The translations under genes were made by a program, and so were the position numbers. From positions 70,023 to 134,022 of the forward strand of contig DJJR01000026.1 of assembly GCA_002434245.1 (NCBI GenBank): DNA of 64,000 nucleotides, written 5' to 3'. The DNA is from Pelosinus fermentans (lineage in GTDB: Bacteria; Bacillota; Negativicutes; DSM-13327). The notes beneath the pieces are model-generated. The model saw only the letters and a list, made by a program, of their open reading frames with translations. It did not search any database and was not told where the DNA came from. This document shows, piece after piece, positions 22,658-33,862 of the stretch (position 1 is its first letter; each line of letters opens with the position of its first letter).

Positions 22658-22822
22658 CCTTGCCATTATCCTACCGTTAGTACAAAAAAAGGATATAATT
22701 TAAAAAGGACTAAGTATAGACATCTCCTATATAAGACTGTTACAATATGCTAAGAACGTATACGTTGGCAGATTGTTTTCGCGATGCTGCTAATGAAAAA
22801 TATTGAGAAAAGAGTGAAAAAT

Positions 22823-23992
22823 ATGATTGGTGTAAGCAAATTGCTTTGCGATACGGAAAATTTCGGGGATTCATTGCGTTATGCTCCCGGTGTCCATGGA
22901 CAGCGTCATGGTGCTGCCCAAGGTATGGGGCCGGTACTTTCTTGGAATATTACCCGAACCTGTAATTTGAGATGTGTACATTGCTACTCTGATTCCGATG
23001 GGAAAAAATATGATGGTGAGCTGACAACGAAAGAGGCTAAAAAATTTATTGATGACTGTGCTGCCTTTAAGGTCCCTGTTTTGTTGCTGTCAGGAGGAGA
23101 ACCACTCATTCGTCCTGATGTTTTTGAATTGGTGGAACACGCCAAGAAATATGGCATACGTTCTACTTTTTCTACCAATGGCACATTGATTGACAAACAA
23201 TTAGCAAAAGATATTAAGGCACTAAATGTAGGTTATGTGGGTATTAGCCTTGATGGTCTGGGTGAAGCCAATGATAAATTTCGTGGTAAGCAAGGGGCCT
23301 TTGAAAAAGCCCTGGAAGGCATCCGCAACTGTCTGGATGTGGGACAACGCGTTGGTTTGCGTTTTACCATTAACCGCTATAATTTTCATGATTTAGAAAA
23401 TATCTTTCGCCTGATAAAAGAGGAAAGAATTCCGCGGGTCTGTTTTTATCATTTGGTGTATTCAGGAAGAGCTTCTCAGATGATGGAGCATGATGTTACT
23501 CATGAGGAGTCCCGTCAGGCTATGGATCTTATTATGGCTAAGGCGCAAGAACTTGATAAAACCTGTGAAATACTTACTGTTGATAACCATGCGGATATTG
23601 TATATTTATATTTGCAGGCTCTTAAGAAGGATCCTGTGCGGGCCGAGAAGGTATGGAATCTGATGATGCGCAATGGCGGCAATCGTTCAGGCATCGCTTT
23701 TGGCAATGTAGATCCTTTAGGAAATGTTCATTCGGATCAATTTACCCAGAATTATACCTTTGGAAATGTTCGTGATCGAGCAATTGGCGACATCTGGACA
23801 GATGAGTCCAATCCCATTCTTGCAGGCTTAAAGGATCGCAAAGCATTATTAAAGGGCCGCTGTGGTATCTGTAAATGGCTAAATGTCTGTAATGGCAATT
23901 TCCGTGCCCGGGCAGAAGCTGCCACCGGTGATTTCTGGGAATCAGATCCAGCCTGTTATTTGACAGACGAAGAGATCGGTATCGTAAAATAG
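22823..23992 (+). CDS. Radical SAM protein of the AhbC/NirJ1 type
   Basis: This is a cytoplasmic radical SAM enzyme of about 389 residues. The 4Fe-4S SAM motif is C47-x3-C51-x2-C54 in RTCNLRCVHCYSDS, followed by LLSGGEPLIRPD and FSTNGTLID. The C-terminal cysteine group (CGICKWLNVCNGNFRARAEA...DPACYL) is of the SPASM-like kind. The N-terminus MIGVSKLLCDTENFGDSLRY is characteristic of AhbC and NirJ1, which remove acetate side chains from didecarboxysiroheme in the siroheme-dependent heme or heme d1 route. No other heme gene is adjacent. The start is placed at the ATG at 22823 by similarity; an in-frame ATG upstream at 22784 is less likely. A terminator follows. Confidence 0.8.
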   Translation: MIGVSKLLCDTENFGDSLRYAPGVHGQRHGAAQGMGPVLSWNITRTCNLRCVHCYSDSDGKKYDGELTTKEAKKFIDDCAAFKVPVLLLSGGEPLIRPDVFELVEHAKKYGIRSTFSTNGTLIDKQLAKDIKALNVGYVGISLDGLGEANDKFRGKQGAFEKALEGIRNCLDVGQRVGLRFTINRYNFHDLENIFRLIKEERIPRVCFYHLVYSGRASQMMEHDVTHEESRQAMDLIMAKAQELDKTCEILTVDNHADIVYLYLQALKKDPVRAEKVWNLMMRNGGNRSGIAFGNVDPLGNVHSDQFTQNYTFGNVRDRAIGDIWTDESNPILAGLKDRKALLKGRCGICKWLNVCNGNFRARAEAATGDFWESDPACYLTDEEIGIVK

Positions 23993-24023: not shown

Positions 24024-24050
24024 GCTGTCACTATAAAGTGGCAGCTTTTT
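24024..24050 (+). terminator. Intrinsic terminator of the radical SAM gene
   Basis: A 9-bp stem GCTGTCACT / AGTGGCAGC (one G-T) with loop ATAA is followed by TTTTT. It insulates this gene from the iron-uptake locus. Confidence 0.85.
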
Positions 24051-24080: not shown

Positions 24081-24121
24081 TTGACAAACTGATAAAAACC
24101 GCTATAATGAGAATTGTTATC
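24081..24121 (+). promoter_or_regulatory. Promoter with overlapping Fur box upstream of the AraC gene
   Basis: TTGACA (24081-24086) and TATAAT (24103-24108) are 16 bases apart. The 19 bases from 24103 to 24121 match the Fur consensus GATAATGATAATCATTATC at 15 positions and cover the -10 box, so iron-bound Fur should block this promoter. Confidence 0.8.
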
Positions 24122-24172
24122 AATTATTATGAGCTTTCTCGGCATCGAAGAGTCTGAAATGGAGGTGATAAT

Positions 24173-25132
24173 TTGCTTAATGAACATTTGGTGGGACTGG
24201 AAGTTGGCCGTTTATTGAATCAGCCGTCATTAGAGACCAAATACGTTCTTCCTGCAGAAACTGGCAGTGGTTATTGCCGACAGATTAGACCTGATAAGAC
24301 GTTGCAGGTCGTTCAGTGTGAAGCTTATTTTCATCAACCTCTTCAGATTCCACTGACTCTGCAGCGTCAAGTCTTTCAGATTTCTTTTTGTTTTGAAGGT
24401 CCGCTTACTTGGCAGACTACAGGCGGCGCTAGTGAATCAGTACTTAATCATAACGAGAGCTATTTGTGTTATGGTGAAAATATGAGTGGCATCAATTATT
24501 ATGCAAGGGAAACTCAATATAGTGGGATTGTAATCAATATGCAGTATGACCGTTTTCATTCCATTCTTAAAGCTCTTAAGCCTGACTGGAGGATTTATCA
24601 GTATGGAGAGCCTGTATCGGCAGTCAGAAGAATGCCTGTTACTGCAACAGTTAGAAGACTGCTAGGGGATATTATTGGCAGCTCTTGTGATGATTCACTC
24701 AAAAGACTGTATCTTGAGGCGAAAGTCCTTGAGCTTATTGCAGTCTATATGAATGAAATGGTGGAGGAAAAACAAGTTGGATGTGGTGCTGTCCAAATTT
24801 CAGCACGGGACATAGAGGGGCTTCGTGAGATTAAAAGGATTTTAGATCAGAGTATCGATGCTGCACCGACGATTAAGACGCTGGCGAGGATGACTTGTTT
24901 GAATGAGTTTAAAATAAAAACGGGCTTTAAACAGATGTTTGGTATGCCGGTTCATGCCTATGTGGTGGATAAAAGAATGGAGGCGGCTCGTGATTTATTG
25001 GAGGGAAAAAAAATAAAAGTGGGTGAGGTTGCCAGTTTGGTTGGTTATACGAATACTAGCCATTTCATTGCCGCATTCCGCAAAAGATTTGATATGACTC
25101 CTGGTGAATACTGCAATAGTGATAAACGATAA
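24173..25132 (+). CDS. AraC-family transcription regulator of an iron-uptake locus (YbtA/PchR-like)
   Basis: This is a DNA-binding regulator of 319 residues. The C-terminal part (about 215-315) carries two helix-turn-helix units, with IKTLARMTCLNEFKIKTGFK and VGEVASLVGYTNTSHFIAAFRKRF before the family end MTPGEYC. The N-terminal 200 residues are of the PchR/YbtA kind that senses a siderophore complex; the ligand here is unknown. The start is TTG, six bases after GGAGGT. A Fur box overlaps its promoter. It lies directly upstream of the TonB-dependent receptor in the same direction but with its own terminator, as expected for a local activator of the receptor promoter. Confidence 0.88.
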   Translation: MLNEHLVGLEVGRLLNQPSLETKYVLPAETGSGYCRQIRPDKTLQVVQCEAYFHQPLQIPLTLQRQVFQISFCFEGPLTWQTTGGASESVLNHNESYLCYGENMSGINYYARETQYSGIVINMQYDRFHSILKALKPDWRIYQYGEPVSAVRRMPVTATVRRLLGDIIGSSCDDSLKRLYLEAKVLELIAVYMNEMVEEKQVGCGAVQISARDIEGLREIKRILDQSIDAAPTIKTLARMTCLNEFKIKTGFKQMFGMPVHAYVVDKRMEAARDLLEGKKIKVGEVASLVGYTNTSHFIAAFRKRFDMTPGEYCNSDKR

Positions 25133-25155
25133 AATAAATAAAGATATAATGATAC

Positions 25156-25209
25156 AAGATCTCATCTGCTTGCTTATTATGATAAGCGGCAGATGGGATC
25201 TTTTTTAGC
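25156..25209 (+). terminator. Intrinsic terminator of the AraC gene
   Basis: A long stem AGATCTCATCTGC...TTAT / ATAAGC...GCAGATGGGATCT ends in six T. It separates regulator and receptor transcripts. Confidence 0.88.
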
Positions 25210-25301
25210 ATCGAAAAATACAATCGCTGGAGTGTAGTCAAAAATACCTTTTTGAGTATGATAAAATATCGTTTCGGGTAACATTATTTTGCTAATTTAT
25301 C

Positions 25302-25320
25302 TATAATGAGAATCGATCGC
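25302..25320 (+). promoter_or_regulatory. Probable Fur box at the TonB-receptor promoter
   Basis: TATAATGAGAATCGATCGC matches the 19-base Fur consensus at 13 positions and shares its first 12 bases with the box upstream of the AraC gene. Its TATAAT could be a -10 box. I see no good -35 box, which would fit dependence on the AraC activator. Confidence 0.6.
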
Positions 25321-25395
25321 AGCTTAAATGTTGTTTGGGTAGAAAAAATGCCTCATGAATAACGGTGATAATCTATAGCAAAAGGAGGGCAAACA

Positions 25396-27336
25396 GTGGG
25401 GAGAACAACGAAAAATTTGCTGGCAAAAAAGATGATAGGTTCACTGATAAGCAGTACGTTGCTGCTTGCTATTCCAGGTGGAGTAATGGCTGAAGAAGCT
25501 GGAGAGACTTATGACCTGGAAGAAGTGGTGGTGACTGCTAGCCGTATGCCGACAAAACGAGTTGAGACAGCGGCCAACGTAACGGTGGTGAGTCGGAGAG
25601 AAATTGAGGAGAAAAGCCTGACGACAATTGCTGAGGCATTAATCCAGGCTGGCGTCAAAGTCGAATCAGAGGGTGGCAGCGCCGTGGATAGTGCCAAAAT
25701 TATGCTCAATGGCAGTGAGCAGGTTGTCGTACTGGTCGATGGACGCAGGGTCAATTGGGAACAACAGGTTGTTAGTGGACGGGCTGGCTATAGTCTGGAT
25801 ATGCTGCCTAATTTAGACAGTGTAGAGAAAATTGAAGTAGTGCGGGGGGCAGCTTCATCTCTTTACGGCAGTTCCGCCGTTGGCGGTGTAGTCAATATTA
25901 TTACCCGTAAAGGCACAGAGAGAAATACGACCGCAGCAACGGAATTTGGCAGTTGGGGGTCGCGTCGGTATCGGCTGCAGACTGGAAATAAGATCGGTGA
26001 TACTGGCTATCTGGTGACTGCTGAACGATGGAAGCAGGGCAATTATGAATATAAAGACCCACAAAATGGAAAAGTCGTAACAATGCCTAACAGTGATTTC
26101 GAACGGGAGACGGCTTCTGTACGGCTTGACAAGGATTTGGGAGAGGGCAAGATCCTGACCTTTTATTTCGATCATTTAAATGAAGATGCCGGCTATCCAG
26201 TCGCTAAACCGGATAATCCAATGTACAGTCCGAATGCTTCCCGTCATATTGTGTCCAATAACGTGTCGCTGGCCTATCGCTGGCAGCAGGGTGATAAAGT
26301 GACTAACAATTTTCAAGTTTACCGCAATCATTATAGTGCTCTTTGGCATCGTTACCGTTATAATTCTGGCAGCAGCAGTTATGAAAATCAGGCTGACGGT
26401 ATTGAGTGGAACCAAAGCCGGAGGCTGAATGAGCAGCATACCTTGCTCAGTGGAGTAGATTGGCGAAATGTGAGTGTTGGTGTAGCACAAATGGGAACTG
26501 CCGATTCAAAGATGCGTAATCTGGGAGTGTTCCTGGAAGATCGGTGGACGCTGAATCCGGCATGGACATTGAGCAGCGGTCTGCGTTGGGATGATCACAG
26601 CATTTACGGCAGTGAATCAACTGCTCGGTTTAGTGTCAATCGAAAAGTAAATGACAAGACCAATATGTATCTCTCTTGGGGCCAAGTTTATCGTGGACCT
26701 GATGCGGACGATCTGTTCATGCCCGATATGGGGTATTACAAAGGGAATCCTAACTTGAAACCGGAGAAAGGTCATACAACCATGCTAGGGATGAATAGCA
26801 AACTGTCCTCGGGGACAACGATCCAAACCAGCTTATTCAGCACTTATCTAAAGGATGCAATCGACTGGGATCGAAGTGAAACACCGTGGAAGCCAACGAA
26901 TGTTGCTAAGCAAAAGAAACGAGGGTTAGATATTGAAGTCATTCATCCGTTAACTCCGGCCTGGGACTTAACAGCAGGGTATTCTTACCTGCAAGTTAAG
27001 GAGGATAATAAGAATGGAAAGGGCTATCAATTGTCCAGCAATAATAGCCAGCCTAATGCATATCGGCTGGGTGTCCGTTACCATCAAGATGCGTGGAATG
27101 TCAGCGTTTTGGGGCGGGGAGCTACTGGACGCAGTCTGACAAGCTTCACCTCCGAGCAGTACTGGGTACTTGATGTGGCAGCCAGTTATCAAATCCGGCC
27201 AGATATGAAGCTATACGCCAAAGTGAATAATCTGACCAATCGAGCCTATGAAACCAATTATGTTTCAGGCTGGGGAATTGGGGCTTTTCCAATGGCAGCA
27301 AGACAAATAATGGTAGGATTGGAAGGTCGTTTGTAA
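25396..27336 (+). CDS. TonB-dependent outer-membrane receptor (siderophore/heme/cobalamin class)
   Basis: This 646-residue outer-membrane gate imports a metal chelate using TonB energy. A signal peptide covers residues 1-32 (ISSTLLLAIPGGVMA). A TonB-box-like EEVVVTASR follows, then the plug domain to about 175 (VVVLVDGRRVNWEQQ, VEKIEVVRGAASSLYGSSA, GGVVNIITRKG) and a beta barrel with alternating strands to the end. The GTG follows AAAGGAGG by 7 bases. The last residue is Leu rather than the common Phe or Tyr. It is the strongest proof that the host is a diderm. No TonB, ExbB or ExbD gene is in the window. The ligand cannot be told from sequence alone. Confidence 0.93.
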   Translation: MGRTTKNLLAKKMIGSLISSTLLLAIPGGVMAEEAGETYDLEEVVVTASRMPTKRVETAANVTVVSRREIEEKSLTTIAEALIQAGVKVESEGGSAVDSAKIMLNGSEQVVVLVDGRRVNWEQQVVSGRAGYSLDMLPNLDSVEKIEVVRGAASSLYGSSAVGGVVNIITRKGTERNTTAATEFGSWGSRRYRLQTGNKIGDTGYLVTAERWKQGNYEYKDPQNGKVVTMPNSDFERETASVRLDKDLGEGKILTFYFDHLNEDAGYPVAKPDNPMYSPNASRHIVSNNVSLAYRWQQGDKVTNNFQVYRNHYSALWHRYRYNSGSSSYENQADGIEWNQSRRLNEQHTLLSGVDWRNVSVGVAQMGTADSKMRNLGVFLEDRWTLNPAWTLSSGLRWDDHSIYGSESTARFSVNRKVNDKTNMYLSWGQVYRGPDADDLFMPDMGYYKGNPNLKPEKGHTTMLGMNSKLSSGTTIQTSLFSTYLKDAIDWDRSETPWKPTNVAKQKKRGLDIEVIHPLTPAWDLTAGYSYLQVKEDNKNGKGYQLSSNNSQPNAYRLGVRYHQDAWNVSVLGRGATGRSLTSFTSEQYWVLDVAASYQIRPDMKLYAKVNNLTNRAYETNYVSGWGIGAFPMAARQIMVGLEGRL

Positions 27337-27344
27337 TAAATGAA

Positions 27345-27374
27345 GAAAGGGTTATCGCCAGCGATAACCCTTTC
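27345..27374 (+). terminator. Hairpin between receptor and ecfT genes
   Basis: A perfect 14-bp stem GAAAGGGTTATCGC / GCGATAACCCTTTC with a two-base spacer lies 9 bases after the receptor stop. It lacks a T-tract (CTTTCACG follows). It is more likely an mRNA-stability or partial-termination element that lowers expression of the downstream transporter genes. Confidence 0.55.
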
Positions 27375-27403
27375 ACGTTAGGGATCAGGAAAGGGGAACA
27401 ATC

Positions 27404-28156
27404 ATGAACTCGCGCATAACGTTTAAAGCAGCGGCACCTGACCCTAGGGTATTGCTGCTAGTATCTTCAGTAACTTGTACGCTATGCTTTGTGCTGAATC
27501 ATCGATTCAGTCTCATGGTGGTATTTATTCTTATGGCGGTCAGTATGGTTTTATTAAAAATGACTAAGCCAGCCCTTCGGTTCATTTTGGCATATGGTGT
27601 GTTGGTCAGCTTGGAACAGTTGACGTTACTGATTGGGGTTAAAGAAATTCAAGTAGCAGCAGCAGTAGTAGTAGTGTTTTTATGGCGATTTTTACCCGTT
27701 ATGATGGCAGGGTTGATGGTTGTGACGAGAATCAGGATTAATGAATTAATTATTGCCCTGGAACATATGCATGTACCCAATCAAATAAATATTCCACTTA
27801 CTATTGCTTTTCGATATTTGCCAACTGTTTATCAGGAACTGGGGTGTATCCGGGATAATTTAAAGCTGAGAAACTTGCCGGTAACTCCTTGGCAAATCTT
27901 ATGTCAGCCGATAACGGCTGTTGAGCAGTTGCTAGTACCATTATTAATGCGCAGTGTTCATCTGGCGGATGAATTGGCGGCCACAGCTTTATGCAAGGGT
28001 CTTACTGCATATAATAAGCGGACTTCGGCTTCAGATGTACATTTTAGAAGGCGTGACTGGGCATTGTGTACAGTATGTATATTAGTTGCTGCAATATTGC
28101 TTGCAGGTGAGGAATCCCTTAAGCAAAATCGCAATTGGGGGTGGTATTTTGGTTAA
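27404..28156 (+). CDS. ecfT: ECF transporter transmembrane component EcfT (CbiQ family)
   Basis: This 250-residue inner-membrane protein is the coupling subunit that links a substrate-binding S component to two ATPases. About five hydrophobic helices occupy residues 15-125. The cytoplasmic coupling region follows, with RINELIIALEHMHVP, IPLTIAFRYLPTVYQELG and the ATPase-contact motif AATALCKGLT, a variant of the usual Ala-Arg-Gly motif. AAAGGGGAA precedes the ATG. It is followed, with overlap, by two half-size ABC transporters, an unusual neighbour for EcfT. Its ATPase partner is most likely the double EcfA gene 3.5 kb downstream. Confidence 0.87.
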   Translation: MNSRITFKAAAPDPRVLLLVSSVTCTLCFVLNHRFSLMVVFILMAVSMVLLKMTKPALRFILAYGVLVSLEQLTLLIGVKEIQVAAAVVVVFLWRFLPVMMAGLMVVTRIRINELIIALEHMHVPNQINIPLTIAFRYLPTVYQELGCIRDNLKLRNLPVTPWQILCQPITAVEQLLVPLLMRSVHLADELAATALCKGLTAYNKRTSASDVHFRRRDWALCTVCILVAAILLAGEESLKQNRNWGWYFG

Positions 28157-29963
28157 GTATGAATCGGGGGCTGGCAGGCTGTTGGAGATTGCCGCTGAAA
28201 AATCAGCATTGCTCATTTGGGCAGGAATATTTTCAATTTGCAGCGCTATTTTTCTACAGGTACCCTATCTGGCGGTATATTTCATTTTAGCCGAATTGCT
28301 GCGTAACATGGCTCAGCCTGAAATGGCTGACAAAATTGTAATGTTGCATTGGGGCATGATTGCCATGCTAAGTTTAATCGGTGGGATTATAGCCATGTAT
28401 CTGGGGGGGTTATGTTCACACATTGCTGCCTTTCATATCTTATATAAACTGCGGCTTCGCCTGACTGAGCATATCGGCAGGTTATCTTTAGGATATTTAA
28501 CACAAACTTCCATCGGGATTGTACGAAAGACACTAGAACAAAATGTAGAAAAAATTGAGAAGTTTATCGCTCATCAACTGCCGGATATCATTAGTGTTAT
28601 GGGAGCGATGCTGGTTATGCTGGCCGCCATGTTTTATTTACATCCCTGGCTAACAGTGGTATGTCTGATACCTCTGTTTTTGTGCCTTGCGCTTCAATTG
28701 GGCATGATGCTCAATCAGCAGGCGAAGCAGCGCGTAAGGGCCTATTATGATGCACTTGAGCAGATTAATGCTTCAACAGTGCAATATATCCGGGGCATGG
28801 CCGCCGTAAAAGTATTTGGGCAGACCGTACATTCCTTTCGGCAGCTTTATCACGATATTATCCGTTATCGGGATTTGTCTGTCAGATATTCCGATCAGTT
28901 TCAAAATGGCTTTAGTATGTTTAAGGTGGTGCTTGGTTCGATCCTGACTTTCGTTTTACCTGGCGGTATTTATCTTTTAAGCCGTGACCCTGGTAATATA
29001 GATTTGGTCTTGGTTTTATTGTTTTTTCTTATTATGGCTCCTGGTCTGGCAGTGCCTATTTACAAACTGATGCATTTTGCCGGTGCATTTCGTGATATTA
29101 CGGAAGGAGTTGCACGGATTGATAGTATTCTGCAAGAAAAGCCCCTGCCCCAAGTGGAAATTTCCAGCCTGCCACAATCTTTTGATGTTGAATTTGATGA
29201 GGTAACTTTTTCGTATAATGGTTATGGGGCAGAAGGTAGTCTGCCAGTGCTTAACAATGTAAGTTTCAAGGCACTGCCCGGTCGTATTACTGCATTGGTG
29301 GGACCTTCCGGCTCAGGAAAGTCGACCGCAGCCAATCTAATTCCGCGTTTTTGGGATGTTGATCGGGGGGCAGTCAAGATCGGCGGCATAGATATTCGTA
29401 ATATTCAAAGCAAAGACCTGATGAATACGGTGTCCTTCGTTTTTCAGGATACATTTTTATTTTATGATACTTTATATGCTAATATTGCCGCAGGTCGGCC
29501 AAGTGCTACTAGGGAGGAAGTCTATGCGGCAGCTCGTGCAGCCCAATGTCATGGGTTTATTGAGAGGTTGCCCCAAGGTTATGATACTGTGATTGGTGAG
29601 GGAGGTACGTATTTATCAGGTGGGGAGGAACAGCGTGTGGCTGTTGCTAGGGCCATTTTGAAAAATGCACCAATTTTGGTGTTAGATGAAGCTACTGCCT
29701 TTGCAGATGCTGAAAATGAATACAAGCTACAATTAGCACTGAAAGCATTAATGTGTGATAAAACAGTGATTGTCATTGCTCACCGCCTTGCATCCATCAA
29801 AGAAGCCGATAACATCTTGGTTTTTCAGAGAGGTACAATTGTCGAAGAAGGAACTCATCTAGAATTGATTGAGGGCAATGGCTTATATACTGCTATGTGG
29901 ACTGCTTACACGAATACTGATGCATGGAAGTTGGGAACTGTGGCGGGGAAGGGTAACAGATGA
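28149..29963 (+). CDS. ABC transporter, fused membrane and ATPase domains (YbtP/IrtA-like), first of pair
   Basis: This half-transporter has about 604 residues. Six membrane helices (about 1-310) precede an ATPase domain with Walker A GPSGSGKST, signature LSGGEEQRVAVARAIL and Walker B ILVLDEATAFAD. By fold it is of the exporter type, but relatives such as YbtP/YbtQ and IrtA/IrtB import siderophores. The likely start is the TTG at 28149, after GGGGGTGG and overlapping the ecfT stop by 8 bases; the ATPase frame extends further upstream, but that extension lies inside ecfT. It overlaps the next gene by four bases (ATGA), suggesting a heterodimer. Confidence 0.88.
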   Translation: MVKYESGAGRLLEIAAEKSALLIWAGIFSICSAIFLQVPYLAVYFILAELLRNMAQPEMADKIVMLHWGMIAMLSLIGGIIAMYLGGLCSHIAAFHILYKLRLRLTEHIGRLSLGYLTQTSIGIVRKTLEQNVEKIEKFIAHQLPDIISVMGAMLVMLAAMFYLHPWLTVVCLIPLFLCLALQLGMMLNQQAKQRVRAYYDALEQINASTVQYIRGMAAVKVFGQTVHSFRQLYHDIIRYRDLSVRYSDQFQNGFSMFKVVLGSILTFVLPGGIYLLSRDPGNIDLVLVLLFFLIMAPGLAVPIYKLMHFAGAFRDITEGVARIDSILQEKPLPQVEISSLPQSFDVEFDEVTFSYNGYGAEGSLPVLNNVSFKALPGRITALVGPSGSGKSTAANLIPRFWDVDRGAVKIGGIDIRNIQSKDLMNTVSFVFQDTFLFYDTLYANIAAGRPSATREEVYAAARAAQCHGFIERLPQGYDTVIGEGGTYLSGGEEQRVAVARAILKNAPILVLDEATAFADAENEYKLQLALKALMCDKTVIVIAHRLASIKEADNILVFQRGTIVEEGTHLELIEGNGLYTAMWTAYTNTDAWKLGTVAGKGNR

Positions 29964-31693
29964 AGCTATATAATATTACGATTGGAGAACCAAAAAAAAT
30001 TTTTAAGCCTGCTCTGTATGGGGTTTTGTCTAATATCATTAATGTTTTGCCATTTGCATTGGCGATTGAGGCAGTTCGTCTCATTTTTAGTTCTTTTGCC
30101 CAACCAGGAATAACCCTGGATCTAGCCCGGCTATGGCTGGTTTGTGGAAGTATGGTGCTGACCATATTTGTTATGTTCGGTGGTGAAGTGCTGGCTTATC
30201 GGGCAGCATACCGGGGCGCCTACCTACTGGCGGCCACTGGGCGGGTGAAGCTGGCTGAGCACTTGCGGAAATTGCCATTGGGAGCGATAATCAGTCGAGA
30301 TTCGGGAGGTCTTAGTAACATGATGATGGGTGATTTTGCTCTTATAGAGCATTCATTATCTCATTTGGTACCACAATTGATTGGTGCCTTAGTCCTGCCA
30401 TTGCTGGCTTTTTTGTTACTGTTATTCTTGGATTGGAGGATGGCAGTGACGATGTTTGCAGCATTGCCTGTTGTCATTTTACTTACAATGCTTACTGCCA
30501 AACTGCAATTGCGGCTAGGAGGTGGTCATATGAAGGCTAAGATTAGTGCTATTAACCGACTACAGGAATATTTAAATGGTATTCGGGTAATTAAAGCACA
30601 TAATTTGACTGGAGAACGTTTTATCAAATTAGAAGAAGCCTTCCGGAATCTAATGACAGCCAGTATAAAGTTTGAAAGTTTAGTCGTGCCTGCTGTTATG
30701 GCTGCAATTGTTTGTATACGGGCTGGTCTGCCGCTAATGGTATTTATCGGAGTTCATTTGCTGCTCGGAGGTGAGTTGTCGATTGTTGCCTTTGTAACAT
30801 TTTTGCTTATTGGTACCAGGATCTTTGATCCTCTGACTACTGTGCTGATTAATTTTGCGGAACTGAGCTACAATGAGCAAGCTGGCCGCAGAATAGTTGA
30901 GTTATATACAGAACCAATCATGAGGGGGCTGGAGGTGCCGCCAAACAAATATGATATTACACTGGAACAGGTTACCTTTCAATATGGAGATTCTTTTGTA
31001 CTCGCAAATGTTTCGCTGCAGATCCCGGAAGGATCATTAACAGCCTTTGTTGGCCCTTCTGGTGGAGGAAAAAGCACAGTCTTCAAGCTTATAGCTCGCT
31101 TTTATGATCCACAGCAAGGTCGTGTTCTGCTCGGAGGTAAAGACATCAAAACAATTGAGCCTGAATTATTGTTGGAAAAGATTTCAGTTGTATTCCAGGA
31201 TGTCTATTTATTTCAAGATACAATCGGCAATAATATCAGAATGGGCCGCCAGTCGGCCACTCAGCAGGAAGTTGAAGAAGCGGCGCAGCGGGCTTGCTGC
31301 CATACTTTTATCATGCAGTTGCCACAAGGCTATAACACTCCGGTAGGTGAAGGGGGGTGTACGTTATCTGGTGGTGAAAAACAACGAATTTCCATAGCGC
31401 GTGCTATATTGAAAGATGCGCCAGTAGTCTTGCTGGATGAAGCGACAGCTGCACTGGATCCTGAAAATGAGCAGGACATACAAAAGGCGATCAACGAACT
31501 GATTCATGGCAGAACGGTTATTGTTATTGCTCATAAGTTAAAAACGGTATCTACTGCCGATCAGATAGTGGTTTTGGCGGACGGCCAGGTAGTAGAACAA
31601 GGGCAGCACAGAGAACTGCTGGCAGGGAAAGGCCTCTACTCCCAGCTTTGGGATTTGCAGCAAACAATGCAGGGGTGGCGAATATCATCCTAG
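29960..31693 (+). CDS. ABC transporter, fused membrane and ATPase domains (YbtQ/IrtB-like), second of pair
   Basis: This half-transporter has 577 residues. The membrane domain covers about 1-310, and the ATPase domain has Walker A GPSGGGKST, signature LSGGEKQRISIARAIL and Walker B VVLLDEATAALDPENE. Both catalytic sites of the pair look complete. The ATG overlaps the stop of the preceding gene, so translation is coupled and a heterodimer is probable. The pair AraC regulator, TonB receptor and two such ABC genes mirrors ybtA, fyuA and ybtPQ of the yersiniabactin system. The substrate is unknown. Confidence 0.9.
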   Translation: MKLYNITIGEPKKIFKPALYGVLSNIINVLPFALAIEAVRLIFSSFAQPGITLDLARLWLVCGSMVLTIFVMFGGEVLAYRAAYRGAYLLAATGRVKLAEHLRKLPLGAIISRDSGGLSNMMMGDFALIEHSLSHLVPQLIGALVLPLLAFLLLLFLDWRMAVTMFAALPVVILLTMLTAKLQLRLGGGHMKAKISAINRLQEYLNGIRVIKAHNLTGERFIKLEEAFRNLMTASIKFESLVVPAVMAAIVCIRAGLPLMVFIGVHLLLGGELSIVAFVTFLLIGTRIFDPLTTVLINFAELSYNEQAGRRIVELYTEPIMRGLEVPPNKYDITLEQVTFQYGDSFVLANVSLQIPEGSLTAFVGPSGGGKSTVFKLIARFYDPQQGRVLLGGKDIKTIEPELLLEKISVVFQDVYLFQDTIGNNIRMGRQSATQQEVEEAAQRACCHTFIMQLPQGYNTPVGEGGCTLSGGEKQRISIARAILKDAPVVLLDEATAALDPENEQDIQKAINELIHGRTVIVIAHKLKTVSTADQIVVLADGQVVEQGQHRELLAGKGLYSQLWDLQQTMQGWRISS

Positions 31694-31711
31694 GGGAATT
31701 GAGGTACATGT

Positions 31712-33190
31712 ATGTGTAAAATTCAAATTAGTTTCAATGACGTATCGTTCCAATATATGAATGCCGCTGAGTCTGCTTTAGTTAAATTTAATTTACAAGT
31801 AAAAGAGGGAGAGACGGTTTTGTTAACAGGACAAAGTGGTTGCGGCAAAACTACCGTAATTCGCGGTATTAATGGGCTGATTCCTCACTTTTTCGCTGGT
31901 CGATTACAGGGCACGATTCGAGTTGCTGAGATGGACGTTGAAAGTACGCCAATCCAGCAGTTGGCCCGGAAAGTTGGCTCGGTGTTTCAAGACCCACGAT
32001 CCCAGTTCTTCACATTGGACGTTATGACGGAACTTGCCTTTCCTGGTGAAAATTTTGGCTTAAGCGGAGCAGTGATTCGTGATAATATGATGACTGTTAT
32101 CAATGATTTGGAGCTGTATGACATTGTAGATCGCCGACTTTGCAACTTGTCCAACGGTGAAAAACAGAAAGTTGCCATTGCTTCTGTTTATACAGTTGCT
32201 TCGGCAATTTTCGTGCTGGATGAGCCTTCATCCAATCTGGATGGCAAGGGGATAGCTAAGTTACAGAAGGTGCTGGCACAGCTCAAAAGCAAAGGATATA
32301 CGATTATTATTTCCGAGCACCGATTTCATTATCTGGCTGGATTAGCGGATCGAGTTGTTTGCATGGCAGAGGGTAAAGTGCATAGTGAATGGCTGAGCAA
32401 TGCTTTTTTCAGTAAATCCAGCTGCTGGTTTGAACAAATGGGGTTAAGAATGGCTAGTCCCCAGGAACTGTCTCCTTCGCCTGTAAGCAGGAGCAAAGCT
32501 GACGGTAAGCCGGTTGTAATGGCTAGAGATATTTGTTTTAGCTACAATCCTTCGCGGCAGATTTTAACCGATATTTCCCTGACGGCTTGTGCTGGTGAGA
32601 TCATTGGTATTGTAGGACAAAATGGTGTTGGTAAAAGCTCGTTGGTAAAAGTTCTGCTAGGGTTAAAGAAGCAGACGAAAGGTACTGTCTATTTAAATAA
32701 TCGCCGATGCACAGTGGCCCAGCGACTGACACAGTCCTTTTATTGTTTGCAGGAGGCGGACTATCAGTTGTTTGCCGCCAGTGTGGATGAGGAAATGTTG
32801 CTAGGGTTATATCTGGGTGATAGGGTTAGGCAGAAGGCTGCAAATTTACTATGTTTTTTTGGATTGGATAAGTATCGGGACTGCCATCCGGCTACTCTTT
32901 CAGGTGGGCAAAAACAACGACTGACCATTGCTTTGTCTTGTATGAGGAATACAGGTCCACTGTATTTTGATGAACCTACCAGTGGTCTAGATGGCGGTAA
33001 TATGCGTCTGGTCAGTAGTTTGATCCGAAATTTGGCCGATGAAGGTCGTTGTGTTTTTGTTATTTCTCATGATTATGAATTTATGCTGCAGACTGTTAAC
33101 AAAGTTATACATCTTACGGGCAGAGGGCAGACTGAGGTATTTGACCTCAATGAGCAAACCGCAGACAAACTGTGGTCAATCCTGGAATGA
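31712..33190 (+). CDS. ecfA: ECF transporter ATPase with two ABC domains
   Basis: This 492-residue protein carries two ATP-binding domains in one chain, replacing separate EcfA1 and EcfA2. The first has Walker A GQSGCGKTTV, a variant signature LSNGEKQKVAIA and Walker B VLDEPSSNLD. The second has GQNGVGKSSL, a canonical LSGGQKQRLTIA and YFDEPTSGLD. It should power EcfT and the S component. GAGGT lies 6 bases before the ATG. It lies 18 bases after the ABC pair and 3 bases before the stop-to-start gap of the S component, so one operon is likely. The glycine-to-asparagine change in the first signature suggests unequal sites. Confidence 0.88.
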   Translation: MCKIQISFNDVSFQYMNAAESALVKFNLQVKEGETVLLTGQSGCGKTTVIRGINGLIPHFFAGRLQGTIRVAEMDVESTPIQQLARKVGSVFQDPRSQFFTLDVMTELAFPGENFGLSGAVIRDNMMTVINDLELYDIVDRRLCNLSNGEKQKVAIASVYTVASAIFVLDEPSSNLDGKGIAKLQKVLAQLKSKGYTIIISEHRFHYLAGLADRVVCMAEGKVHSEWLSNAFFSKSSCWFEQMGLRMASPQELSPSPVSRSKADGKPVVMARDICFSYNPSRQILTDISLTACAGEIIGIVGQNGVGKSSLVKVLLGLKKQTKGTVYLNNRRCTVAQRLTQSFYCLQEADYQLFAASVDEEMLLGLYLGDRVRQKAANLLCFFGLDKYRDCHPATLSGGQKQRLTIALSCMRNTGPLYFDEPTSGLDGGNMRLVSSLIRNLADEGRCVFVISHDYEFMLQTVNKVIHLTGRGQTEVFDLNEQTADKLWSILE

Positions 33191-33202
33191 GGAGTGTATT
33201 GT

Positions 33203-33817
33203 ATGGTAAATGAAAGTGGTAACAGCAAGGTTGTTAAAGAATTGATCACTATTGGGATTTTCAATGCAATTGCCATTGCGGTTTTTTTTGCCGTAGGATT
33301 AAGCTTGAGCTTTATAACGACCTTAATACCAGTGGTTGCAGTGATCATGCCAGCCATTTTAGCATTGCCGGGAGGAATTATTTATCTTTTAATGATAACG
33401 AAGGCCCCAACTAAAGGCGTTTTTATTATTAGCGGTATATTACTAGGGGTGTTCATGGTGGCTGTCGGCAATATGGTGTTTTTTCTAATTTCTATGACAG
33501 TGGCAGGATTTGCAGCCGAGGCTGTATTTACGGTAATCGGTCGTAAAAAATTTTGGGCAGCGGCCACTGGTTTTGCTGTGTTGATGATTGGCTTTGTGGC
33601 TGGTGGTTATTTTCCGATGATCTTTATGCGCAAAGCATATTTGGATTTTCAACTAGCTCGTGGTCTTGATTCAGCTTATCTGGAAGCGATGATAGCAATA
33701 CTGAATCCAGGGGTATTTGCCGGAATTATAATTATTACGGCGACCGCCGCCTATTTGGGCAGTTTATGGGGACGTAAGGTGCTTCATAAACATTTTGCCA
33801 AAGCCGGAATTTTATAA
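33203..33817 (+). CDS. MptD-like (Trep_Strep family) ECF S component
   Basis: This integral membrane protein of about 204 residues has five or six helices. It resembles the MptD/Trep_Strep family of putative ECF substrate-binding components (LITIGIFNAIAIAVFFAVGL, ILALPGGIIYLLMITKAP, then GRKKFWAAATGF and GGYFPMIFMRKAYLD). Such proteins bind the substrate in the membrane and dock on EcfT. The substrate for this family is not firmly established to my knowledge. The ATG at 33203 is preceded by GAGGAG at 8 bases; the GTG at 33194 overlaps that site. It is the last gene of the uptake operon, followed by a strong terminator. Confidence 0.8.
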   Translation: MVNESGNSKVVKELITIGIFNAIAIAVFFAVGLSLSFITTLIPVVAVIMPAILALPGGIIYLLMITKAPTKGVFIISGILLGVFMVAVGNMVFFLISMTVAGFAAEAVFTVIGRKKFWAAATGFAVLMIGFVAGGYFPMIFMRKAYLDFQLARGLDSAYLEAMIAILNPGVFAGIIIITATAAYLGSLWGRKVLHKHFAKAGIL

Positions 33818-33827
33818 AAAGCCGCTT

Positions 33828-33862
33828 AAATATCCCGCCTGATTTCAGGCGGGATATTTATA
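33828..33862 (+). terminator. Terminator of the iron-uptake/ECF operon
   Basis: A perfect 15-bp stem AAATATCCCGCCTGA / TCAGGCGGGATATTT. The T-tract is short (ATATTTATATG), but the stem is very stable. Confidence 0.85.

Follow-up and report, generated by a model that had tools for sequence, protein, structure and literature searches.

A putative metallophore uptake locus of Pelosinus fermentans that combines a TonB-dependent receptor, an energy-coupling factor module and a YbtPQ-like transporter pair

Introduction

Siderophores usually cross the inner membrane through ATP-binding cassette (ABC) importers that either depend on a binding protein or are of the YbtPQ type. The presence of an energy-coupling factor (ECF) transporter and an ABC transporter beside the nonribosomal peptide synthetase (NRPS) genes for a thiazoline is already known from monoderm bacteria. 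In the equibactin locus of Streptococcus equi a permease/ATPase trio has been shown to act as an importer (PMC3672683), the equibactin likeness and the ECF import system of a Staphylococcus lugdunensis cluster have been published (PMC12709192), and an island of C. difficile clade 3 has been listed with genes for AraC, ABC, Ecf and thiazolinyl imide reductase (PMC6814731). A thiazoline cluster with a TonB receptor has been reported for Sporomusa termitida in a 2026 genome-mining paper, the main text of which contains neither "ECF" nor "energy-coupling" (PMC12971057).

Here we examine a locus of seven plus-strand genes (24173-33817) in a 64,000-nucleotide stretch of DNA, referred to as the window, from Pelosinus fermentans, a diderm related to the Clostridia (GCA_002434245.1, contig DJJR01000026.1; genome G000, 83.5% complete). 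The genes encode, in order, an AraC-family regulator, a TonB-dependent receptor, EcfT, two half-size ABC transporters (ABC1 and ABC2), a double EcfA ATPase (EcfAA) and an MptD-family S component. A first-pass annotation had presented this gene set as a hybrid and the locus as a two-membrane import route for iron chelates. As such the gene set is not new, since ECF and ABC genes beside thiazoline NRPS genes had been published for monoderms (PMC12709192, PMC6814731). The import route is supported by recurrent receptor linkage and Fur-type boxes, except for the proposal that the ECF and ABC parts form one machine. The locus is real and functionally coherent, and its diderm form with a receptor of its own is undescribed in the open-licence PMC literature that we found: titles and the beginnings of abstracts gave no description of a TonB receptor with an ECF transporter for a siderophore, and a literature search gave no paper that joins Trep_Strep to siderophores. 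We consider it probable that the locus is a Fur-controlled uptake arm for thiazoline metallophores, leading from the receptor to the ECF module, with the ABC pair as a second, separable transporter.

Results

Seven genes of recognised families

Pfam and NCBIfam assignments agreed for all seven genes and confirmed the families, order and strand given in the first-pass annotation. The S component lies above cut-off for both PF09605 (152 bits) and TIGR02185 (MptD, 98 bits), which places it in a recognised S family with a likely fold; the sequences of solved structures gave a single weak row (E 6). EcfT matches CbiQ (47.3 bits, cut-off 25) and, weakly in sequence, a solved EcfT (E 0.00017), with no match in NCBIfam. 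EcfAA scores as an ECF-type ATPase against cbiO (229.5 bits, above the cut-off of 211.8), while its best NCBIfam models, ECF_ATPase_1 and ECF_ATPase_2, remain below their cut-offs (261.5 and 258.6 bits against 315 and 330); no solved structure was matched at E 1e-40, perhaps too strict a threshold.

The receptor carries the plug and barrel domains of a TonB-dependent receptor over cut-off (PF07715, 66.8 bits; PF00593, 141.8 bits). It is nearer to BtuB and the colicin I receptor (103 and 98.6 bits) than to the pesticin receptor FyuA (27.3 bits), and an identity as BtuB was rejected because its scores fall under the NCBIfam equivalog cut-offs (TIGR01779, 209.8 versus 599.7; NF007926, 152.6 versus 836). 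The two half-size ABC transporters are exporter-fold subunits that, among half-size solved structures, are nearest to YbtP and YbtQ, and thus form a pair of the YbtPQ/IrtAB type: the best match of ABC1 is YbtP, the chain paired with YbtQ in 6p6i/8vsi (313 bits; Sav1866, 244), and that of ABC2 is YbtQ (329 bits; Sav1866, 270). As noted earlier for a periplasmic binding protein, no binding-protein gene occurs among the seven.

At what we take to be the second coupling motif of EcfT, the window has KG where other EcfT sequences that match the pattern have RG. The KG variant is common to the EcfT of the window, L008-L011, L068, L069, L101 (first copy), L105, L108, L109, L115 and L119 (L and G numbers are our handles for loci and genomes) and is also found in Clostridium, Vallitalea and Tissierella relatives; several EcfT gave no pattern match.

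The receptor and the ECF module are linked across Negativicutes

We searched 380 Negativicute genomes and found PF09605 over cut-off in 19 genomes, at 26 loci; weaker matches, confined to G032, G034, G043, G056 and one stretch of G003, were excluded. For the 25 loci that lie outside the window, we retrieved the flanking sequence and tagged it for modules. Both EcfT and EcfA were tagged at 22/26 S loci, and a TonB receptor lay within about 10 kb at 21/26, including 11 where it was within 300 bp. Linkage expected by chance is about 11%, calculated from a total of 372 Plug matches across the 19 S-carrying genomes (some 5 per Mb) with receptors taken as evenly spread and kinship ignored. The receptor of L103, the fourth G303 locus, lies 4.4 kb off in the neighbouring stretch L102 and was added to the count by hand. 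The five S loci without a receptor are those of G377, G079:C1, G078, G122 and G129, the last near a contig end.

One locus from another family, L108, has a gene order identical to that of the window and a receptor 77% identical to the window's. Seven other receptors are at least 53% identical; five of them have an S gene no more than 10 kb away, and the other two have one at 31-46 kb on the same contig. On the identical order of L108 and the recurrent linkage we reject chance assembly or an annotation artefact.

A second sample of 61 named loci was gathered with a profile of S-component homologues, from Clostridia, staphylococci, coriobacteria, bifidobacteria, Treponema, one myxobacterium and three Negativicutes. 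Here tags are similarity matches anywhere in the retrieved stretch, and loci on short contigs (e.g. L030, L040, L053 and L056) were scored without whatever lay outside it. EcfT and EcfA accompany the S gene in 59/61 named loci, joined by an ABC pair in 39; in 17/61, some on short contigs, the ECF module stands alone with no pair, receptor or NRPS tag. The first-pass annotation had proposed a search for the gene set in other Negativicutes and in monoderms, and had counted as adverse any relatives in which ECF genes are never linked to a receptor or pair; the 21/26 and 39/61 counts bear out the linkage and contradict that adverse case. The myxobacterial locus (L062, Citreicoccus inhibens), from a diderm outside the Negativicutes, has S, EcfAA and EcfT with no receptor tagged within it. 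When compared with plasmids, the S. lugdunensis S component gave five records, all below 60% identity.

Several Negativicute genomes carry more than one set. In G303, a Sporomusa-type genome, four S genes within 33 kb run into NRPS genes; two belong to full sets (EcfT, EcfA, AraC, ABC pair and receptor), one lacks EcfT and EcfA tags and one lacks an EcfA tag, as if the latter two shared an ATPase. In the wider region (L101-L103, L122 and L123; G303:C1:850000-941800) the S genes lead into a large thiazoline NRPS cluster, and extra sets of pair and receptor are present. Of the three S loci of G079, one belongs to an NRPS-linked set, another to a set that stands alone as in the window, and the last has a pair but no receptor. 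In L119, ExbB, ExbD and TonB are encoded directly upstream.

In family f20, the MptD-type ECF trios of L112, L113, L117, L120 and L121 adjoin giant TonB receptors, about 1,575-1,650 amino acids long. In the giant receptor of L117, the only one scanned, plug and barrel lie within the first 850 residues only. Neither an ABC pair nor a thiazoline NRPS tag is present at these loci, and two further f20 genomes, G122 and G129, have the trio genes with no giant receptor nearby.

The ECF module and the ABC pair occur apart

The first-pass annotation had argued from the interleaving of their genes that the ECF module and the ABC pair work as one system. Among the retrieved loci the interleaved order (EcfT, pair, EcfAA, S) is found in the window and L108 only. 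A pair with a receptor and no ECF tag in the retrieved stretch occurs in L123 and L124, and eight Negativicute loci have ECF and receptor with no pair in the retrieved stretch. Two of these, L068 and L069, adjoin thiazoline NRPS/reductase genes and were retrieved for just 2.8-3.1 kb on one side (L009, which is the same place as L069, has no pair in 10 kb); L119 adjoins NRPS genes. A combined ECF/ABC machine is therefore unsupported.

Fur-type sites recur upstream of related loci

The earlier claim of Fur marking held for araC, where sites of that quality (15/19) are expected 0.45 times per 64 kb and two were found. It did not hold for the receptor taken by itself: about 20 sites of 13/19 are expected per 64 kb, so that a match at chance level to the E. 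coli 19-mer consensus was rejected as sole proof of Fur control there. In 22 Negativicute sources (L106, L110 and L116 excluded) we additionally scanned 96 upstream regions for Fur-type 7-1-7 boxes scoring at least 12/14 and found 22 sites, 21 of them distinct, compared to 0.45 in Markov-shuffled regions. A divergent site of L067 was counted from both sides, and the sister genomes G003 and G004 give the same site twice. The sites fall in 13/22 sources and, at the level of predicted operators, place the set in the Fur regulon; the operon is probably induced by iron shortage.

Thiazoline synthesis genes accompany part of the relatives

The thiazolinyl imide reductase model TIGR01761 was over cut-off in 9/380 Negativicute genomes (five with weaker matches were excluded), and all nine are among the 19 that carry the S component. 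Each of the 12 reductase genes shares a contig with an S gene and is no more than 41 kb away from it. In S. lugdunensis (L022), S, EcfT, EcfAA, ABC1 and ABC2 follow one another inside an NRPS cluster with a reductase-like protein just under cut-off (184.6 bits, cut-off 188.8). The pointer to yersiniabactin in the first-pass annotation was thus right in kind, several relatives being located inside thiazoline NRPS clusters.

Organisation of the window locus

The predicted features are listed in Table 1. The genes from the receptor to the S component are joined by overlaps or short gaps: ABC1 and ABC2 share the four bases ATGA, as stated earlier, and EcfT and ABC1 share eight provided that ABC1 begins at its TTG. 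For the S gene, ATG 33203 is a likelier start than GTG 33194, as judged from the ribosome-binding site and a database copy of 204 amino acids. The sole break is the stem-loop 3' of the receptor gene, perhaps a site of processing or attenuation. Because araC has its own terminator, araC and the receptor-to-S genes look like two transcription units, which revises the single cluster described earlier; its strand and order are as described. The strong closing terminator of that description is present by folding energy, though absent from the list of the consensus terminator scan.

Table 1. Predicted genes and regulatory features of the locus, in window coordinates
Feature	Position	Strand	Remarks
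araC promoter	24081..24108	+	TTGACA-16-TATAAT, 12/12 sigma-70; overlapped by Fur-like site; combined feature 24081..24121
Fur-like operator at araC	24103		15/19; 12/14 as 7-1-7 box
AraC-family regulator	24173..25132	+	TTG start, 319 aa; HTH_18/AraC
Intrinsic terminator 3' of araC	25156..25202	+	hairpin and T run; -28.9 kcal/mol, z -8.0
Receptor promoter with weak Fur-like site	25278..25320	+	promoter 10/12; site 13/19 at 25302; 12-base core in common with araC site
TonB-dependent receptor	25396..27336	+	646 aa; plug and barrel; BtuB/CirA-like
Stem-loop between receptor and EcfT	27345..27374	+	perfect 13-bp stem; no T tract on + strand
EcfT (CbiQ family)	27404..28156	+	250 aa
Half-size ABC transporter 1	28149..29963	+	TTG start; ABC_membrane+ABC_tran
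Half-size ABC transporter 2	29960..31693	+	ABC_membrane+ABC_tran; overlap ATGA at 29960-29963
EcfAA double ATPase	31712..33190	+	492 aa; two ABC_tran domains
MptD/Trep_Strep S component	33203..33817	+	PF09605, TIGR02185; about 204 aa
Closing terminator hairpin	33827..33860 (about)	+	-25 kcal/mol, z -5.4

A NirJ1-like radical SAM gene (22784-23992; TIGR04054, 694.7 bits, cut-off 650) lies directly upstream, and its own terminator (24024-24045) bounds the locus on that side. Elsewhere in G000, a second related receptor (44%; L126, G000:C17) has the usual neighbours, a FecCD permease and a periplasmic binding protein, and a bacillibactin-like cluster for a catechol-type siderophore (L129, G000:C71) encodes an isochorismatase-carrier protein and a two-module NRPS.

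Discussion

At the level of sequence, the gene set, the S family with its likely fold, the operon layout and the recurrence of both receptor/ECF/pair linkage and Fur-type boxes are evident, as is a thiazoline NRPS linkage in part of the relatives. By functional type the locus would belong with equibactin and yersiniabactin, and from there we infer the substrate, the direction of the ABC pair, the roles of AraC and Fur, and the scavenging. In the route that we favour, a thiazoline-type metallophore loaded with ferric iron or another metal would enter the periplasm through the TonB receptor. There it would be bound directly by the MptD-family S component, in place of a periplasmic binding protein, and EcfT with the double ATPase would power its entry into the cytoplasm. 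The YbtPQ-like pair would be a second transporter in the inner membrane that handles ligands of this family, either a parallel importer or one that recycles or exports the emptied ligand, with AraC acting as a ligand-responsive activator and Fur as the repressor. This division of labour is drawn by analogy with S. equi, in which deletion of eqbHIJ took away most equibactin-dependent iron accumulation whereas deletion of eqbKL left the iron-toxicity phenotype in place (PMC3672683). Since no thiazoline reductase or synthesis gene was detected in G000, the locus probably scavenges metallophores from neighbouring cells. The fuller proposal is a stand-alone operon that lives off the thiazoline metallophores of others, in which the S component stands in for a binding protein and receives the ferric metallophore directly from the periplasmic output of the TonB receptor. 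It would be a first path from a TonB receptor to an ECF transporter for a siderophore, and it is a tentative proposal that we would not yet back over its denial.

Several observations weigh against the favoured route. NRPS or reductase tags were found in only 9/61 named loci (six of them reductase) and 7/25 Negativicute loci outside the window, and 10/19 S-carrying genomes lack TIGR01761: the window's own, G009 (85% complete), G377 and seven of family f20. PF09605 alone is therefore no proof of a thiazoline substrate. The 11 NRPS, reductase and thioesterase queries gave no match in the window, and TIGR01761 was not found in G000, at the completeness of 83.5%. No Fur-type site of at least 12/14 was found in 9/22 sources (L111, L114, L119 and six f20 loci). 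With the S model, Foldseek alone found nothing below E 0.001, a result superseded by a later fold comparison, and no S. equi S homologue is named among the 120 listed of 709, so that EqbHIJ being an MptD-type ECF transporter is our inference. The trees (rows picked by locus and length, giant receptors excluded) also disagree. In the EcfAA tree (37 rows) the sister group of the window and L108 comprises ten rows from Negativicutes and Clostridia, six of them NRPS-tagged; in the receptor tree (15 rows) the window groups with L102, L104 and L107, from genomes that carry the reductase but in a second (Sporomusa) type of set, and not with the receptors beside the EcfAA sister clade. Receptors were thus exchanged, and the ligand of the window receptor may differ.

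The pair could itself be the metallophore importer, as are YbtPQ in Yersinia and IrtAB in Mycobacterium, leaving the ECF module to carry a different or derived substrate, for example the released metal, a precursor or a breakdown product. Its closeness to YbtP and YbtQ, ahead of Sav1866, and its presence beside receptors that have no ECF tag in the retrieved stretch argue for this reading; the contrasting eqbKL and eqbHIJ deletions, of which only the latter stopped equibactin-dependent iron toxicity (PMC3672683), and the eight pairless ECF and receptor loci, three of them by NRPS genes, make it unlikely. The same resemblance to an importer, together with the lack in G000 of any detected thiazoline product to export, counts against a recycling loop in which the pair exports metallophore or emptied ligand while the ECF module and receptor import the loaded form. 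Such a loop overlaps one option within the favoured route, and it accords with the exporter fold of the pair and with the twofold lower potency of eqbKL mutant conditioned medium, for which the authors considered efflux possible (PMC3672683); taken by itself we regard it as improbable.

An LhaSTA/Sia-type heme importer that has gained an outer-membrane receptor seems slightly more improbable still. Fur-regulated heme ECF importers exist (PMC7299338), siaFGH (ECF) adjoins siaDE (ABC) in group A Streptococcus (PMC6593403), and the NirJ1-like gene directly upstream is of tetrapyrrole type. However, that gene is separately terminated, and the synthesis pathways linked in Negativicutes are those of thiazolines, although we made no search for heme genes around the relatives. 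The S component, if started at ATG 33203, has no Cys, and its only two His (198 and 200) lie in the C-terminal tail; spectra of LhaS suggest histidine ligation, and a membrane part free of His argues against that mode of ligation only. Finally, the receptor and ECF module might be unrelated neighbours in a loose iron or metal island, in keeping with the swapped receptors that the discordant trees indicate and with the five S loci whose surroundings, to about 10 kb, contain no receptor. Linkage at 21/26 loci, direct adjacency at 11/26, the identical order of L108 and the apparent single operon in the window render this very improbable indeed.

If, as in the favoured reading, an ECF module takes up siderophores behind a TonB receptor, diderms would use ECF transporters for large metal chelates, a ligand class could be assigned to the MptD/Trep_Strep S family, which has long lacked one, and the fitting of a monoderm cassette to an outer membrane would become testable.

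Comparison with known systems

The yersiniabactin system (YbtA, FyuA and YbtP/YbtQ) shares an AraC regulator, a TonB receptor and a half-ABC pair with the window, but FyuA matches the window receptor less well than BtuB or the colicin I receptor does, and we know of no ECF module in the yersiniabactin system. LhaSTA of S. lugdunensis and SiaFGH of Streptococcus pyogenes are iron-regulated ECF importers, as the window locus is predicted to be, yet they take heme and belong to monoderms. The equibactin-like cluster of S. lugdunensis has the same S, EcfT, EcfAA, ABC1 and ABC2 families but, as described, is monoderm, with NRPS genes adjacent and no receptor (PMC12709192; L022). Within the Negativicutes, the thiazoline NRPS clusters of Sporomusa and Pelosinus (L068, L069, L109, L115 and L119) have the same ECF, S and receptor families; unlike these, the window has no NRPS genes and carries the pair between EcfT and EcfAA.

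The equibactin locus eqbA-N joins the trio eqbHIJ to the YbtPQ-like pair eqbKL under iron regulation, as the window appears to do, and is described as a monoderm system with a DtxR-like regulator and a thiazoline NRPS of its own but no outer-membrane receptor (PMC3672683). Thiazoline NRPS or reductase genes beside the transporters, the mark of the equibactin type, are absent from the window and present in nine other Negativicute genomes. Because neither the window nor G000 shows such genes, the locus would work like the uptake arm of an equibactin-type system rather than as a complete member, here equipped with a TonB-dependent receptor.

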